Positions 9,275-16,227 of a stretch of DNA of 64,000 bases are shown piece after piece. Position 1 is the first letter of the stretch; each line of letters opens with the position of its first letter. The notes beneath the pieces were generated by a model, which was given only the letters and a program-made list of their open reading frames with translations, made no database searches and was not told the origin of the DNA. A program made the position numbers and the translations under genes. Origin of the DNA: Akkermansiaceae bacterium (lineage in GTDB: Bacteria > Verrucomicrobiota > Verrucomicrobiia > Verrucomicrobiales > Akkermansiaceae); contig JABDRB010000009.1 of assembly GCA_013041925.1 (NCBI GenBank), positions 62,001 to 126,000 of the forward strand, read 5' to 3'.

Positions 9275-9595
9275 TTAGCCACCGATCTCGGTGCGGCCGG
9301 AAAGGACGGCACCTTCTTCCATGCTAAGCATTTTGGTTTTGATATCACCATCGAGCTTGGAGTTGGTTTTGAGTTCGCAGCGTTCGGAGGTGATGGTCCC
9401 TTCGATTTTGCCAAAGAGTTTCACTTCGCCAGCCTTGACATCACCTTTGACAAAAGCGTTTTCACCGATGGTGACCTTACCTTTATCCGAAGTGATTTCG
9501 CCTTCTACTTTACCGTCAATGACCATGTCATTGCTAAACTTGATGGAACCGTTGATTTCGATTCCATTCGCGAGAACGTTGGTTGCATTCGCCAT
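9275..9595 (-). CDS. Bactofilin (polymer-forming cytoskeletal protein)
   Basis: A 106-residue bactofilin (DUF583). The protein is one continuous right-handed beta-helix with the characteristic short repeat of Gly-x-[VI] turns: INGSIKFS, IDGKVEGEI, VTIGENAFVKGDV, VKLFGKIEGTI, LDGDIKT. Bactofilins polymerise without nucleotide and organise cell-wall enzymes at curved or polar sites. This fits its position next to two proteases and two penicillin-binding proteins. The start MANATNVL (9595) is preferred. A 15-codon upstream extension is unlike the family. Confidence 0.9.
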   Translation of the reverse strand: MANATNVLANGIEINGSIKFSNDMVIDGKVEGEITSDKGKVTIGENAFVKGDVKAGEVKLFGKIEGTITSERCELKTNSKLDGDIKTKMLSMEEGAVLSGRTEIGG

Positions 9596-9668
9596 AAGGC
9601 CCGCACTTTGCCTGAGTGTTGCTTTATGGCAATCAAACAATTTAAAAAATTAAACTAAGAGGTCTTAA

Positions 9669-10826
9669 TTATTGAGAGGTTTTTCTGCGGGCATTTCCAT
9701 GGGGGAGGTGACGGCTGACGGGTTCGGGATGGGTGGTGAGGAGGTTTTGGAGGGTGGATGTGGGGATGATGTAGGTTTTGATACGGCTGCCGCGGGCGAT
9801 GGCGATACCGACGATGTTGCCATTGAGGTCGGTGACGGGGCCGCCACAATCGTTGGTCTGATTATCGTGTGGGTTATTGGGAGTTGAGTCACCTTGGATG
9901 GCTATATCGGATTGGATGACGTTGGGGAAATTGGTTCGGATGCGGCTGGGAACGGTGCCCATCTGTTCCATTTGTTGCATACGTTTGCGGGGGAATGCGC
10001 GGATCTGGGTGTTCTCGGATCGGGAGCCTAGGTGGACGGTTGTTTGTTTGTCCGCATGACCACGTCGGTAGCGCACGATCATTTTAGACCCGGGGGGGAG
10101 GCGTTGGAGGGTGTTGCGCATTTCCATGGCGCCGGTGATGGGTTTTTTGTCGAGGGAGAGAATGACATCGCCCTCGCGGAGTCCGGCCCGAGCCGCAGCG
10201 GAGTTCGGCATGACCTCTTTGAGTGGGACCCCTTGGTGGTGGGTGGGGGAGAAGTCCATCAGCACACCGAGGTAGGCTTTATCGCCTTCACGCAGGCTGC
10301 GGGCATGCACGCTGACGACGCCCAAGCCTTGGACGTGACCGTCGGGGCGGGCAAGGGTGATGAAGCTGCCCAGTTCGGGGGTGGAAGAGGCGGTCAGATC
10401 GAGAGGAACCAGTTTGGCGTCTGGCGACTTGATGGTGAGCAGGGCGAGATCGTGGTCTGGGTAGATGCCGACGACTTGAGCCGGGTAGCGTTTTCCCATA
10501 GGAGTGGTGACGCGGAGTCGGCTGGGTTGTTTGTTTACCTCGCTCCATTTGGTGAGGATGACAGGTTGTTTTTTATCTGGGTGGGTGACGACGGTGCCGA
10601 ATGCGACCCTTTGTCTGGATGAGTGGATGCTGACGGTGCTTTTTGACGCGGTGGCAACGGCCGGTTGGGCAGCACGGAAAAAGTCGACAGCCTGCGTATG
10701 GAGTCGCTTGATTTCCGATGGCCGTAGGTTCTCGAGGGGGTCGGGTAGGCGCAGCTTATTTTGTGAAAAGGCGTGGATGCTGAGTCCGAGCAATCCCGTT
10801 GCGATGATGAGAACAGGGCGTTTCAT
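9669..10826 (-). CDS. HtrA-like pseudoprotease with an inserted PDZ domain
   Basis: A 385-residue exported protein (signal peptide MKRPVLIIATGLLGLSIHAFS) related to trypsin-like HtrA proteases. The His site that normally reads TNAHVV is LTKWSEV, so the catalytic His is missing. The Asp site HDLALL is kept. The nucleophile motif GNSGGP is replaced by NDCGGP. A PDZ domain (EVMPNSAAARAGLREGDVIL) lies before this last motif, so the order is protease N-half, PDZ, then protease C-strand DLNGNIVGIAIARG. It lies directly downstream of an intact HtrA-like gene and is co-transcribed with it. It is probably a non-catalytic substrate- or partner-binding paralogue. An alternative ATG at 10856 lies only 6 nt after the upstream stop. 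Confidence 0.8.
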   Translation of the reverse strand: MKRPVLIIATGLLGLSIHAFSQNKLRLPDPLENLRPSEIKRLHTQAVDFFRAAQPAVATASKSTVSIHSSRQRVAFGTVVTHPDKKQPVILTKWSEVNKQPSRLRVTTPMGKRYPAQVVGIYPDHDLALLTIKSPDAKLVPLDLTASSTPELGSFITLARPDGHVQGLGVVSVHARSLREGDKAYLGVLMDFSPTHHQGVPLKEVMPNSAAARAGLREGDVILSLDKKPITGAMEMRNTLQRLPPGSKMIVRYRRGHADKQTTVHLGSRSENTQIRAFPRKRMQQMEQMGTVPSRIRTNFPNVIQSDIAIQGDSTPNNPHDNQTNDCGGPVTDLNGNIVGIAIARGSRIKTYIIPTSTLQNLLTTHPEPVSRHLPHGNARRKTSQ

Positions 10827-10862
10827 GGGCGTGGCTGAGATTTTGTGTGGGGGCATTGTGGC

Positions 10863-11864
10863 TTATTGATGGGGTAAGATATCGCCTCGGCGTCCTAGGG
10901 TGACCGAAAGGGTCCGGCTGAGCTTGCCTCGGGTGATGCCGACCTTGATGGAATCGCCTGCGTTGTATCGGGAGAGGGTGGCGTGGAGGACGCGGAGATT
11001 GGGGGTGGCACGACGGTTGATGGTGCGGATGATATCGCCAGCGCGCAGACCCGCGTCGCTGGCGGGGCCGCCGTCGAACACGTGGCGGACGCTGAGGCCG
11101 AGCCGTGCGGAGTCGCGGGTGATAATACCGAGGACGGGGGCATCGGGGTCATCCAGCATACTGCTGCCGAGTCGGCCCCAGGTTTCGCCATTTTTCAATT
11201 TCCCCCAATTTTTGTGGAACCCTTCGATGCTGGCGTGATTATTGGATGAAAGGGAGGCGCCGATGGACGAGTGAATCCCGATGACACGGCCATCAAGGTC
11301 GAAGAGCGGGCCACCACTATCGCCACCGATCAGGGTGCAGTCGGTGCTGATGAATTGGTTGGGGCCACGTGCGATGATGCGGCCGAATCGGACGGGTGGC
11401 GTGCGGATGGGATCGAATCCCCCTGCGTGGCCGAGGGCGATCACGAGGTCGCTGGACGTCAGTGATTTGGACTGGCCGACCTCGGCGTAGGGCCATGCGC
11501 CGCTGGGTGCGGGATCGATGATCTGGGCCATGGCGGTGTCTTGGGTGTAATGGGCGCCGAGCACTTTGGCGCGTGCTTGTTGGCCGTTGGTGAAGATGAC
11601 GGTCATTTCTTCGGCGCCGCGGACGACGTGACCCGCGGTGAGGATGAGGCCGTCTTTACTGACGATGACGCCGCTGCCGGAGGCTCCATTTTTCGTGGAA
11701 AAAAGCGAGATGGTGGCGGGTGTGACATGTTTGACGGTTCGGGTGATCTTAGTTTGTAAGGATTTGAGGTCGTCGATTTTTTGCACAAGCGGAGCGGCTT
11801 GGGTGAGGCTGGCGGTGACAAACAGGAAAAGTCCGGCAGCGGGAATGGGGAGAAGGCGTGTCAT
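10863..11864 (-). CDS. HtrA/DegP-type serine protease with one PDZ domain
   Basis: A 333-residue periplasmic protease for envelope quality control. The N-terminal signal peptide (MTRLLPIPAAGLFLFVTASLTQA) is followed by a trypsin-like domain with an intact triad: His in LTAGHVV, Asp in YTQDTAMA and Ser in GGDSGGP. The C-terminal PDZ domain carries VFDGGPASDAGLRAGDII. There is one PDZ, against two in DegP. The ATG at 11864 is chosen because it starts the signal peptide. A 23-codon extension upstream looks spurious. It is the first gene of a two-gene operon with the degenerate paralogue, and is divergent from the penicillin-binding protein genes. Confidence 0.9.
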   Translation of the reverse strand: MTRLLPIPAAGLFLFVTASLTQAAPLVQKIDDLKSLQTKITRTVKHVTPATISLFSTKNGASGSGVIVSKDGLILTAGHVVRGAEEMTVIFTNGQQARAKVLGAHYTQDTAMAQIIDPAPSGAWPYAEVGQSKSLTSSDLVIALGHAGGFDPIRTPPVRFGRIIARGPNQFISTDCTLIGGDSGGPLFDLDGRVIGIHSSIGASLSSNNHASIEGFHKNWGKLKNGETWGRLGSSMLDDPDAPVLGIITRDSARLGLSVRHVFDGGPASDAGLRAGDIIRTINRRATPNLRVLHATLSRYNAGDSIKVGITRGKLSRTLSVTLGRRGDILPHQ

Positions 11865-11911
11865 GGTGAATGTGGGGACGTAATGGCGGGTGTGACTCAG
11901 GGATTTAACGT

Positions 11912-11979
11912 GAGAAGCGACCCGTGCAGGCAAGATTGTTTCAATAATTCGATGGCAACGCTGGTCGAAGTCGCTTCTC
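11912..11979. repeat. Long-range inverted repeat between htrA-like and PBP genes
   Basis: A perfect 10-bp inverted repeat, GAGAAGCGAC (11912-11921) and GTCGCTTCTC (11970-11979), separated by 48 nt. It lies in the divergent intergenic region upstream of the protease (start 11864) and the PBP (start 12087). It may be a paired operator or an RNA hairpin in a leader. Confidence 0.5.
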
Positions 11980-12086
11980 TAGGCTAGAACCGCTGAGTAG
12001 TTTCGCTACCGCAAATGTCATAAAAAGGCTGTATTGGCAGTGTCTGGGCAGTGACGAGGGGTAGTGGAGCTTACGAGGAAACCATT

Positions 12087-14435
12087 ATGGCAGCGCGTAA
12101 AACCAGTTCAAAATCGACGCCAAAGAAGCGGGCCAAGAAGCGTGCGCCGTCGCGCTCATCTGCGCCACGTAAGCGTGCGGCGGCGAAGAAGAAGTCGCGT
12201 CATCGGAAGAAAAAACCCGCATCGAAAAAACGGGGTGTTTTATGTAAGGTTGTGTGTTGGCCGGTGATCTTGTTTGCGCACATGATCCGCGGTTGGCATC
12301 CCGTTGTGAGGTGGCCAGCTCAGATGCTGGCATGGGTCGGCTTGGTCGTTTTATGGGCTGGGATACTGGTGGCGGCTTGCTATTGTATAATGGCCGCTGG
12401 CTATGATTTGGACAAGGTGACGGCGATGCCGGCGAGAACCTTGGTTTACTCCCGCGATGGCAAGACGGAGCTGGGTCGACTGCATGGAGATAATCGGTAT
12501 CTTATCGGACACGATCAAGTTTCGGATGACTTCAAGGCGGCATTGATCTCTAGGGAAGATGCTCGTTTTCGTAGCCATTGGGGGATTGATTTACGCAGCA
12601 TAGCACGAGCAACGGTGCAAAATGTGAAGCGGCGTCGGTTGGCACAGGGCGGGTCGACGTTGAGCATTCAGTTAGCGGAAAACACGTATTTTCAACCTGA
12701 TTCCACGGTGAGGAAATCGAAGTTGAGGTTGTTGCATCAGAAATGTTTAGAAATGGCGCTGGCATTAAGGATCGAGCATCGGTTTGAGAAAGATGAGATT
12801 CTGGAGCACTACATGAATCGGATTTTTTGGGGTCACTCGATCCGTGGGATTGAGTCGGCATCGCGCACGTATTTTGAAAAGTCGGCGAGTCGATTGACGT
12901 TATCGGAAGCGGCGATGTTGGCGGGGATCATCCGTGGTCCGAATGCATTTTCACCTTTTAAGAATAGGGAGGCGGCCGAGGGTGAGCGGGATGTCACGTT
13001 GGGGAGGATGGTTCATTATGGGTATATCGATCAGGCGGATGCGGATCAGGCGATGCGTCAACCCCTGAAAATCCGGCCCAAAAACCGGAGGGTGATTCAG
13101 GATACCTATGTCATGGATGCGGTGCGGCGCGAACTCGACCGGATCCTGGAAGAGGAAAACATAGAGGCAGGTGGGCTGACGGTGATCACCACGATTGATC
13201 ATACCATCCAGCGAGCCGCCGAGCTCTCGATGGAGCGCAACCTCAGTAAGGTGGAAAAAACCCCAGGCTACTGGCATCAGACACGTCAAAAGTGGCGTGC
13301 CCGTCCTGCGGGTCGGCGTGGTGACCCTGCCTACGTCCAAGGTGCGTGTGTGGTGATTGAGAACCGCAGCGGCGCCGTGCTCTCGGTGGTGGGTGGTCGC
13401 CATGCTGGCGAATCGAAGTATAACCGTGCCATCCAGGCGAAGCGGCAGATTGGATCCCTATTCAAACCCTTTGTTTACCTGAGCGCGTTTAACCGTGGAT
13501 TGATGCCATTGACGTGGGTGCCGGACGGACGGATTACCCCGGGTGAGATCGACGGCGCGCCGAGGTCGTGGTCGCCATCCAATTCCGATGGGAAGTATGG
13601 CGGCTACATCACGGCTGATGACGCGCTGGTCCACTCACGCAATACCTCCTCGGTGCGGGTCGGGAACTTTGCCGGATTGAAAAATGTGAATCAGACTGCC
13701 CAAGACGTGGGTTTTATCCAAGGGATTCCACCTAACCCGTCCTCCTATCTGGGGTCATGGGAGGCGACTCCGTGGCAGGTGGCGAGTGCCTACACGGTTT
13801 TTCCTAATAATGGCGACTGGTATCGCCCTTATCTCATTCAGGAAATACGCAATGCCAAGGGTGATCGTGTTTATCCGGGGAAGGGTGATTCGGGGAAATT
13901 GGTCGTGCGTGCCGCAGACCCTGGTGCGACGTGGTGTGTTTCTCATACACTTCAGCAAGTGATTGAGCGTGGCACGGGGAGGCGGACGCGAAGTCTCGGC
14001 TACCAGTCCCCCTGTGCTGGTAAAACGGGGACAACCGATGACTACAAGGACGCATGGTTTGCTGGATACACTGGCACGTTGACTTGTGCGGTCTGGGTGG
14101 GGATGGACAAACCGCAAAAAATCATCCATCGAGGGTATGGCTCCACGCTGGCTGCTCCGATCTGGGTGGATGTGATGAAGACGGCAGGTCGTCTGGGATA
14201 CGCCACACCGAAGTTTAAACCCTTGCCACTCCGCTCGGCCGCGTTATGTCGGTGGTCGGCGAGGCGAGCGACCCGTGGATGTGCCGCGCATCAATCGGTC
14301 TACACGGCGCAGGTTCCCGCTGACATGTTACCTGCACCGAATGATTTTTGTACGATTCACCCGTTGCGGGCGGTGGCGCCTGAGAGGAGTGGCGGGCGAC
14401 GGCGCCCCCCGCCCCGCGCGATCCCTGTCGAGTGA
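12087..14435 (+). CDS. Bifunctional class A penicillin-binding protein (GT51 + transpeptidase)
   Basis: A 782-residue peptidoglycan synthase. The cytoplasmic N-terminus (about residues 1-55) is extremely Lys/Arg-rich. A transmembrane helix is at about 75-100. The GT51 glycosyltransferase has its catalytic Glu157 in REDARFRSHWGID, plus GGSTLSIQL and a second EILEHYMNRIFWG motif. The transpeptidase has SLFK (Ser457), an SRN motif and KTGTT near residue 649, so both activities should be intact. The start at 12087 follows GAGG at 8 nt; a longer frame from 12051 lacks this. A second, degenerate PBP gene follows 67 nt downstream on the same strand. Confidence 0.93.
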   Translation: MAARKTSSKSTPKKRAKKRAPSRSSAPRKRAAAKKKSRHRKKKPASKKRGVLCKVVCWPVILFAHMIRGWHPVVRWPAQMLAWVGLVVLWAGILVAACYCIMAAGYDLDKVTAMPARTLVYSRDGKTELGRLHGDNRYLIGHDQVSDDFKAALISREDARFRSHWGIDLRSIARATVQNVKRRRLAQGGSTLSIQLAENTYFQPDSTVRKSKLRLLHQKCLEMALALRIEHRFEKDEILEHYMNRIFWGHSIRGIESASRTYFEKSASRLTLSEAAMLAGIIRGPNAFSPFKNREAAEGERDVTLGRMVHYGYIDQADADQAMRQPLKIRPKNRRVIQDTYVMDAVRRELDRILEEENIEAGGLTVITTIDHTIQRAAELSMERNLSKVEKTPGYWHQTRQKWRARPAGRRGDPAYVQGACVVIENRSGAVLSVVGGRHAGESKYNRAIQAKRQIGSLFKPFVYLSAFNRGLMPLTWVPDGRITPGEIDGAPRSWSPSNSDGKYGGYITADDALVHSRNTSSVRVGNFAGLKNVNQTAQDVGFIQGIPPNPSSYLGSWEATPWQVASAYTVFPNNGDWYRPYLIQEIRNAKGDRVYPGKGDSGKLVVRAADPGATWCVSHTLQQVIERGTGRRTRSLGYQSPCAGKTGTTDDYKDAWFAGYTGTLTCAVWVGMDKPQKIIHRGYGSTLAAPIWVDVMKTAGRLGYATPKFKPLPLRSAALCRWSARRATRGCAAHQSVYTAQVPADMLPAPNDFCTIHPLRAVAPERSGGRRRPPPRAIPVE

Positions 14436-14502: not shown

Positions 14503-16227
14503 ATGCGGTCGATGAGCTCGGAGGATCAACCATCAACGATTATCTCTATGACTTGGAAATCGGTCAATCAAACATCAAACCTAGCCCGTAGGATGCCCCA
14601 TTGGGTTCCTCCCTGGGTGGCTGGGCTCTTGCGATGGTTGCTGAAGTGGGGGATGGTCGCGCTGGTTTTATGGGTTGCGGTGGGTTTGTTCTATTTTTAC
14701 CTCTCGTTGAAGTATGACCTTACGGAGGTGTCGAAAATTCCTGAGCGGTCGGTGATTTTGGATCGTCATGGTGAGGAGTTTGCCACGATTCATGGTGAAA
14801 GGAGAAAGTTGATTACGAGGTCGGAGGTTCCGGATGTGATGGTGCTGGCGTTACGTGCCAGAGAAGATCTGAAGTTTCCAGATCACACGGGGATTGATAT
14901 CAAGGGGTTGGTGCGCGCGACATTACGGAATATCCGTGATATGTCCTACACCCAAGGGGCCTCGACCTTAACGATGCAGCTCACCCGGAACAGCTATGAG
15001 CTGCGCGCGAAATCGGTGCATCGAAAGCTGTTGGAAATGGCGATCACCTTGCGGATTGAAGGTCGGTATACCAAAGATGAAATTCTCACCCATTACCTGA
15101 ACCGCATTTATTTTGGTGCAGGTTGCCACGGGGTGGAGGAAGCGGCCCAAACCTACTTTGGCCAATCCGTCGCGGAGCTTAACACGGGCGAGTGTGCCCT
15201 GCTGGTGGGCATCATCCGTGGGCCCCATTTGTTTTCCCCATTTCGTAATCGGGAGGGGGCGATGCAGCAGCGTGATGAAGTCCTCACGCGGATGGTGCAG
15301 TGTGGTTTTTTGAGTGAACAAGGTGAGGAATCGGCACGGGCTGAACCGATTCGACTTGTGTCACCGGATGATCGGCATCGTGGAAGCTCCTATGTGAAGG
15401 AGAGTATTCGCCGTCAGTTGCAGGTCATCCTCGATGGTCGCGACATACGTGATGGTGGATTAACGATTCATACCACACTGGATGCGGGTCTGCAGCGTCG
15501 ATGTGATAAGGTCATGGGCGCACCCATTCCGGGACTTGAAAAGGCGGGAGATGCGGGTCGGGGAAAGGTGCAAGGTGTGGTGGTGAGTATGGATGCGCAG
15601 ACGGGTGGCATCCTGAGTCTTGGTGGTGGCCGGAAATTCAGTGAGTCTCCCTATAACCGTGCCTACTTGGCACGCCGTGACCTAGGGCCTGCCTTTGTTC
15701 CGTTTCTGGATGCGATGGCGTTGGAGCGTGGTAAGGTTTGTATCTCTGGGCATCCTGTGCAGACAGGCCGTCAGCTTGGCGTTGATGAAACGATACGTCT
15801 CTCCCGGCGTCTTGGCTTTACGGGACCATTTGCTGACAGCGAGGACCTTTACCGTGGCACCCTTGCTGCCAGCCCGGTCGAGCTCGCCGTTGCAACGGCC
15901 GCGCTTGCGGCTGACGGAAATAAATCGGAACCCTACCTCATCTCCCGCATTACGGATGCGGCGGGGCGTGTGTTTTATGACCGGCGTCCCACCCGCTCGC
16001 AGGTGATGATGAAAGAGTCTGCCCGAGAGGCACTCGCCGCGACGGACTGGCGGGATGACGGCTCATGGATCGCCACAACACATTCGCGGCACGATGCTTG
16101 GGCTCTCGTTGTGAAAGAGTCGCGCGTGATGGTGATTTGGATGGGTCACGATCAGCCACGGGTGATGGGATCTCGTCCCGTGATCAAGCGTGCGATGCAG
16201 GATGTGATTAATCGGATCCAGCCGTAG
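14503..16227 (+). CDS. Class A PBP paralogue with intact GT51 but degenerate transpeptidase
   Basis: A 574-residue membrane protein with one N-terminal transmembrane helix (about 45-70) and a complete GT51 domain: Glu121 in REDLKFPDHTGID, GASTLTMQLTRN, EILTHYLNRIYFG and IIRGPHLFSPF. The C-terminal part aligns with a transpeptidase but has lost its catalysts. The SLFKPF of its neighbour reads PAFVPF, no SxN is found, and KTGTT reads WIATT. The domain is also about 150 residues shorter. It should therefore polymerise glycan but neither cross-link nor bind beta-lactams by acylation. It may form a pair with the active upstream PBP. Starts at 14503, 14512 or 14548 are possible. Confidence 0.88.
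   Translation: MRSMSSEDQPSTIISMTWKSVNQTSNLARRMPHWVPPWVAGLLRWLLKWGMVALVLWVAVGLFYFYLSLKYDLTEVSKIPERSVILDRHGEEFATIHGERRKLITRSEVPDVMVLALRAREDLKFPDHTGIDIKGLVRATLRNIRDMSYTQGASTLTMQLTRNSYELRAKSVHRKLLEMAITLRIEGRYTKDEILTHYLNRIYFGAGCHGVEEAAQTYFGQSVAELNTGECALLVGIIRGPHLFSPFRNREGAMQQRDEVLTRMVQCGFLSEQGEESARAEPIRLVSPDDRHRGSSYVKESIRRQLQVILDGRDIRDGGLTIHTTLDAGLQRRCDKVMGAPIPGLEKAGDAGRGKVQGVVVSMDAQTGGILSLGGGRKFSESPYNRAYLARRDLGPAFVPFLDAMALERGKVCISGHPVQTGRQLGVDETIRLSRRLGFTGPFADSEDLYRGTLAASPVELAVATAALAADGNKSEPYLISRITDAAGRVFYDRRPTRSQVMMKESAREALAATDWRDDGSWIATTHSRHDAWALVVKESRVMVIWMGHDQPRVMGSRPVIKRAMQDVINRIQP

Follow-up and report, generated by a model that had tools for sequence, protein, structure and literature searches.

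Class A penicillin-binding proteins (PBPs) are usually treated as bifunctional by definition. The locus investigated here, part of a window of 64,000 nucleotides (the whole stretch of DNA that was analysed), raises the question of what such a protein does once the active site of its transpeptidase (TP) half is lost while its glycosyltransferase (GT) half is kept. A natural, selected and family-wide TP-dead class A PBP, Akkermansia included, would make it possible to test directly if the two activities need to reside in one molecule, and it would also probe non-catalytic roles of the TP domain. The two adjacent PBP genes of the locus and the elements of the N-terminal half of the second one, in the following termed degenerate PBP, are:

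12051-14435, forward strand: leading gene of the pair, an intact bifunctional class A PBP with SLFK, SRN and KTG (full Pfam matches for both GT51 and transpeptidase; motifs)
14503-16227, forward strand: degenerate class A PBP, GT51 plus pseudo-transpeptidase, 574 aa (Pfam, motifs, orthologue alignment)
14611-14706, forward strand: N-terminal helix, predicted membrane anchor, residues 37-68 (AlphaFold2 helix and hydrophobic sequence)
14770-15294, forward strand: GT51 glycosyltransferase domain, residues 90-264 (Pfam PF00912, E=1.4e-54)
14863-14865, forward strand: catalytic Glu E121, aligned with E. coli PBP1b E233 (5fgz) and invariant in 40 orthologues
15034-15036, forward strand: second Glu E178, aligned with PBP1b E290 (5fgz) and invariant in 40 orthologues
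15307-15558, forward strand: GT-TP linker, residues 269-352 (alignment A1, which comprises degenerate orthologues only)

The open reading frame 14503-16227 (forward strand) is uninterrupted across its full length. Most orthologues open at M-[ST]-W-[KR]-P, and the true start of the degenerate PBP is therefore probably the ATG at 14548. An earlier note on this DNA had placed the intact paralogue 67 nt upstream, which is correct from the first ATG, whereas the likely start gives a gap of 112 nt. Its claim that the second PBP keeps all GT51 motifs proved accurate, as every motif was found. E121, E178, Q159, R174, K175 and other GT residues are invariant among 40 aligned orthologues. In the NCBIfam comparison the degenerate PBP is nearest to the PBP1a family TIGR02074 (324.6 vs a cut-off of 508.75), and its score for the monofunctional GT family TIGR02070 is likewise below the threshold (106.9 vs 182.65 bits).

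The C-terminal half comprises the following elements:

15559-16218, forward strand: pseudo-transpeptidase domain, residues 353-572 (fold match to the PBP1b TP domain)
15688-15699, forward strand: SxxK position, occupied by P396-A-F-V399 (Lys absent in 74/74 orthologues)
15763-15780, forward strand: T421-G-R-Q-L-G, clade-specific conserved motif right after the deleted SxN segment (alignment A1)
16066-16074, forward strand: KTG position, occupied by W522-I-A (motif comparison)
16138-16152, forward strand: WMGHD, in which the WxGxD strand motif of TP domains is preserved (W546 and G548 invariant, D550 nearly so)

The Pfam TP match of the degenerate PBP is a 57-residue piece only (452-508, E=1.1e-7). 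GSLFKP of the intact neighbour corresponds to GPAFVP, SRN is deleted, and KTGTT corresponds to WIATT. The alignment to this neighbour and to 74 orthologues thus bears out what had been claimed from the single sequence, namely that SLFK is replaced by PAFV and KTG by WIA, and that SxN is absent. The SxxK lysine is replaced in all 74 aligned orthologues (E 27, T 20, A 13, S 5, Y 4, Q 3, V 1, L 1) and the serine retained in only nine of them; the SxN segment is missing throughout (74/74) and KTG is gone. All 34 compared intact neighbours, in contrast, retain S..K, SxN and KTG. The recurrence of the same losses in 74 orthologues argues against chance. Moreover, the stretch that separates the SxxK and SxN positions is about 37 residues shorter in the degenerate PBP than in bifunctional class A PBPs. 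A shifted but intact set of SxxK and KTG, the alternative named in the earlier note, is excluded by the alignment: the sole S-x-x-K string (S296-Y-V-K) is located in the GT-TP linker and unconserved, and no K[TS]G occurs anywhere in the 574-aa protein.

The loss of the active site has left the predicted fold in place. The AlphaFold2 model of the degenerate PBP (pLDDT 91.5, pTM 0.83) has a TP-like fold, and its residues 296-574 superpose on the TP domain of pneumococcal PBP1b over 273 residues at 2.5 A (Z ~28). Among PDB structures, PBP1a and PBP1b match best; the weaker model of the intact neighbour (pLDDT 78.8, 17 sequences) was left out. G368, G395, G452, G472, W546 and G548 are invariant in the pseudo-TP, and the TGRQ(I/L)G motif is specific to the clade. 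The proposed alignment with characterised class A PBPs and structural modelling thus gave a concordant result: GT glutamates that match those of PBP1b, a predicted TP-like fold, and TP motifs that are gone.

The search of relatives for the pair, also proposed beforehand, revealed 29 paired loci and degenerate orthologues in at least 194 of 260 Akkermansiaceae genomes (profile search, strict threshold). A single-protein query against genome contigs gave no match, and it was the alignment-based search that detected the orthologues. The same short protein (~540-630 aa) is found in most of 60 Akkermansiaceae genomes searched, and several gut metagenome-assembled genomes labelled Akkermansia sp. 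carry the gene, the individual species labels being unreliable. In a survey of the class (188 genomes), matches at E<=1e-139 occurred only inside Akkermansiaceae. One degenerate PBP from a genome of family f3 (L172; G109:C500:8115-9593) groups inside genus g13 of Akkermansiaceae with starred support; given this placement and the 77%-completeness of the genome, it would represent contamination or transfer.

Selection on both halves was estimated from close pairs only, because dS saturates in distant pairs and makes their omega values unreliable. Omega of the pseudo-TP is ~0.03-0.14 in most close pairs, and that of the GT domain ranges from near zero to 0.08. The pseudo-TP is hence under purifying selection in close pairs. 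The more diverged pair L050/L052 has a pseudo-TP omega of 0.42, indicating a looser constraint in some lineages. The mean pairwise identity of the GT domain across the family is 0.605 for the degenerate and 0.592 for the intact proteins, and the corresponding values are 0.404 for the pseudo-TP and 0.576 for the intact TP. This faster evolution of the pseudo-TP, together with the lost catalytic motifs, is what a decaying duplicate or incipient pseudogene would predict. That explanation, and with it a sequencing or assembly artefact, is nevertheless scarcely credible and was rejected: the frames are open in nearly all degenerate orthologues, the gene is spread over the family in the genomes counted above, omega is low, and the GT residues are invariant. 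Since the gene is kept in most of the family, the degenerate PBP is a real maintained wall enzyme and not a decaying copy. It is also improbable that the protein is mainly a regulatory pseudoenzyme, with minor GT activity and a pseudo-TP that scaffolds other wall enzymes. The retention of a folded pseudo-TP, in which TGRQ(I/L)G forms a conserved motif specific to it, would fit such a role, but conservation within the protein is highest in the GT domain (0.605 vs 0.404), where the catalytic residues are all invariant. We therefore favour, with good confidence, the interpretation that the degenerate PBP is a paralogous class A PBP whose GT half is active and whose TP half is a maintained pseudoenzyme.

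The degenerate PBP shares the order of anchor, GT51, linker and TP-type fold with bifunctional class A PBPs (E. coli PBP1a/PBP1b; TIGR02074, PF00912+PF00905), but it lacks SxxK, SxN and KTG and scores under the TIGR02074 cut-off. Monofunctional GT51 polymerases are penicillin-insensitive, and the degenerate PBP would work like these enzymes (MtgA, S. aureus SgtB/MGT; TIGR02070) as a GT51 polymerase without transpeptidation. However, the monofunctional GTs in the PDB have ~210-270 aa and no C-terminal domain, whereas the degenerate PBP has a folded pseudo-TP of ~220 residues. The combination of an active GT and a dead TP, as proposed here, is known from engineered PBP1b S510A and C. difficile PBP1 S487A. 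The latter are laboratory point mutants; the degenerate PBP, in contrast, is natural and family-wide, and its active-site segments are deleted. To our knowledge, TP-dead class A PBPs are mainly laboratory mutants, and a description of a natural one was not found in the open-licence papers searched, which is weak evidence of absence.

A PBP deprived of the SxxK pair, SxN and KTG can no longer form an acyl-enzyme; neither transpeptidation nor beta-lactam binding is therefore expected, while GT51 activity is. We accordingly read the degenerate PBP as a putative beta-lactam-blind glycan polymerase. Its single N-terminal helix would anchor it, and its GT51 residues suggest that lipid II is polymerised into glycan strands. 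In the presumed absence of an acyl-enzyme it would neither cross-link strands nor bind beta-lactams. The pseudo-TP is probably kept folded for positioning or regulating the GT domain, or for binding a partner or the nascent peptide. Without transpeptidation of its own, its strands would need to be cross-linked in trans, by the upstream bifunctional neighbour, by class B PBPs or by L,D-transpeptidase-like proteins. The same genome has nine YkuD matches and seven TP-domain matches, three of the latter in proteins without GT51, and both the YkuD proteins and these three could be candidate cross-linkers. The degenerate PBP thereby bears on how polymerisation goes on when beta-lactams block transpeptidases.

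Two precedents make cross-linking in trans feasible. In E. coli, the TP-dead PBP1b S510A together with the L,D-transpeptidase YcbB suffices for wall synthesis (PMC5089857), and C. difficile with a TP-dead PBP1 still divides (PMC12539705). The E. coli example and the nine YkuD matches would agree with a more specialised function of the degenerate PBP, i.e. a beta-lactam-blind polymerase whose strands are joined mainly by L,D-transpeptidases in 3-3 cross-links. Gene order shows no link to L,D-transpeptidases, and we regard this specialisation as unlikely. The subfunctionalisation proposed in the earlier note has two parts: the predicted polymerise-only character is well supported at the level of sequence, by the GT residues invariant in 40 orthologues, the TP set gone in 74 and the selection on the pseudo-TP, while guiding the partner enzyme or supplying it with glycan is only plausible.

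The relation to this partner can be addressed by gene order. In 29 loci from many genera, the degenerate gene comes after the intact one in the same orientation; the gap is between -50 and 109 nt in 26 loci and 327, 372 and 2605 nt in the rest, and in two loci the genes overlap. Such fixed order and orientation, mostly at less than 110 nt, would be expected of a dedicated two-enzyme synthase, in which the degenerate PBP feeds strands to, or allosterically activates, the adjacent intact PBP. It is a narrower version of our main explanation, and a duplication inside the family, which it draws upon as well, is permitted by the tree topology tests. Against it, the two genes are unlinked in Akkermansia and in genera g9, g11 and g12, with both of them persisting, and the adjacency is explicable by tandem origin alone. 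Furthermore, the intact gene occurs without the degenerate one in G052 (same genus) and in genera g6 and g15, which shows that some lineages can do without the degenerate protein. As the intact partner is found almost throughout, little can be learned from its co-occurrence with the degenerate gene. The synthase is a possibility that we hold only tentatively. A scan for promoters and terminators gave hits no more numerous than in shuffled sequences.

In a quick tree, the degenerate proteins are located outside the intact clade in two well-supported blocks. A single degenerate clade, when forced, has a better likelihood and is not rejected (AU p 0.80), and neither is a duplication placed within the family (AU test p 0.68). 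The simplest reading is a single origin through tandem duplication. Upstream of the pair, two further genes are conserved:

10863-11933, reverse strand: trypsin/PDZ protein of HtrA type, a conserved neighbour encoded divergently to the PBP pair (Pfam, synteny)
9669-10856, reverse strand: second trypsin-like/PDZ protein, conserved neighbour (Pfam, synteny)

Both trypsin/PDZ (HtrA-like) genes are divergent from and upstream of the PBP pair in ~20 loci, and this conserved pair suggests an envelope-maintenance neighbourhood. A bactofilin gene (9275-9640, reverse strand) is located 2.4 kb from the PBP pair and is also found nearby in the same-genus loci L035 and L037. In G052, which lacks the degenerate PBP, the intact PBP adjoins a convergent alpha2-macroglobulin-like gene (L090:149-4999) that encodes 1616 aa with a CTEQ thioester motif; none was found near the PBP pair in the other loci checked.

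The degenerate PBP is of interest not only as a natural, maintained and family-wide protein, but also as part of a wider pattern. The same genome harbors four GT51 genes. One of them encodes the C29 class A PBP (L212:3336-5885, 850 aa), in which GSxxKP is replaced by GTAFFP and SxN by SKI, with KTG kept. Its family is distributed over Akkermansiaceae and part of the remaining Verrucomicrobiota. The members share a Thr where the Ser would be, and the Lys has given way to L, F, H, T or Q, except in two sequences from outside Akkermansiaceae that keep it (L144, L214). Like the degenerate PBP, this second family is GT51-intact and has lost the SxxK pair (T-A-F-F), but it differs in its full-length TP (~850 aa), the conserved Thr for Ser, the mostly kept KTG and its position in a separate clade. 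In a third class A type of ~1200-1380 aa (L126, L227, L228, L239-L241), encoded by other Verrucomicrobiota, the Lys of SxxK is replaced by Gln and KTG by an MTG-like motif, and the TP motifs are likewise missing in L283 and L300. The C29 family and L126, a representative of the third type, branch apart from the degenerate clade. By contrast, the ten class A PBPs of other phyla that were compared alongside all keep SxxK.

Inactivation of the TP half seems to be a recurring feature among the class A PBPs of Verrucomicrobiota, since SxxK is also altered, usually with loss of its Lys, in the C29 family and the ~1200-1380-aa type. We give even weight for and against the more far-reaching view that Verrucomicrobiota repeatedly split the class A activities by inactivating a still-folded TP; there would then be at least three separate glycan-polymerase-only families, two of them in this genome, and in Akkermansiaceae a large share of the glycan made by class A PBPs would come from beta-lactam-blind enzymes and depend on other proteins for its cross-links. 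Counts of "class A PBPs" that are based on GT51 would overstate both the cross-linking capacity and the number of beta-lactam targets in Verrucomicrobiota. Many other families of the class are without any GT51 match: it is absent in 28 of 44 sampled genomes, whereas the five Akkermansiaceae among the 44 have three or four matches. Another GT51 gene of the genome studied here, on C25, has intact GSALKP, SLN and KTGT motifs and adjoins an alpha2-macroglobulin-like gene, the usual arrangement for PBP1c.
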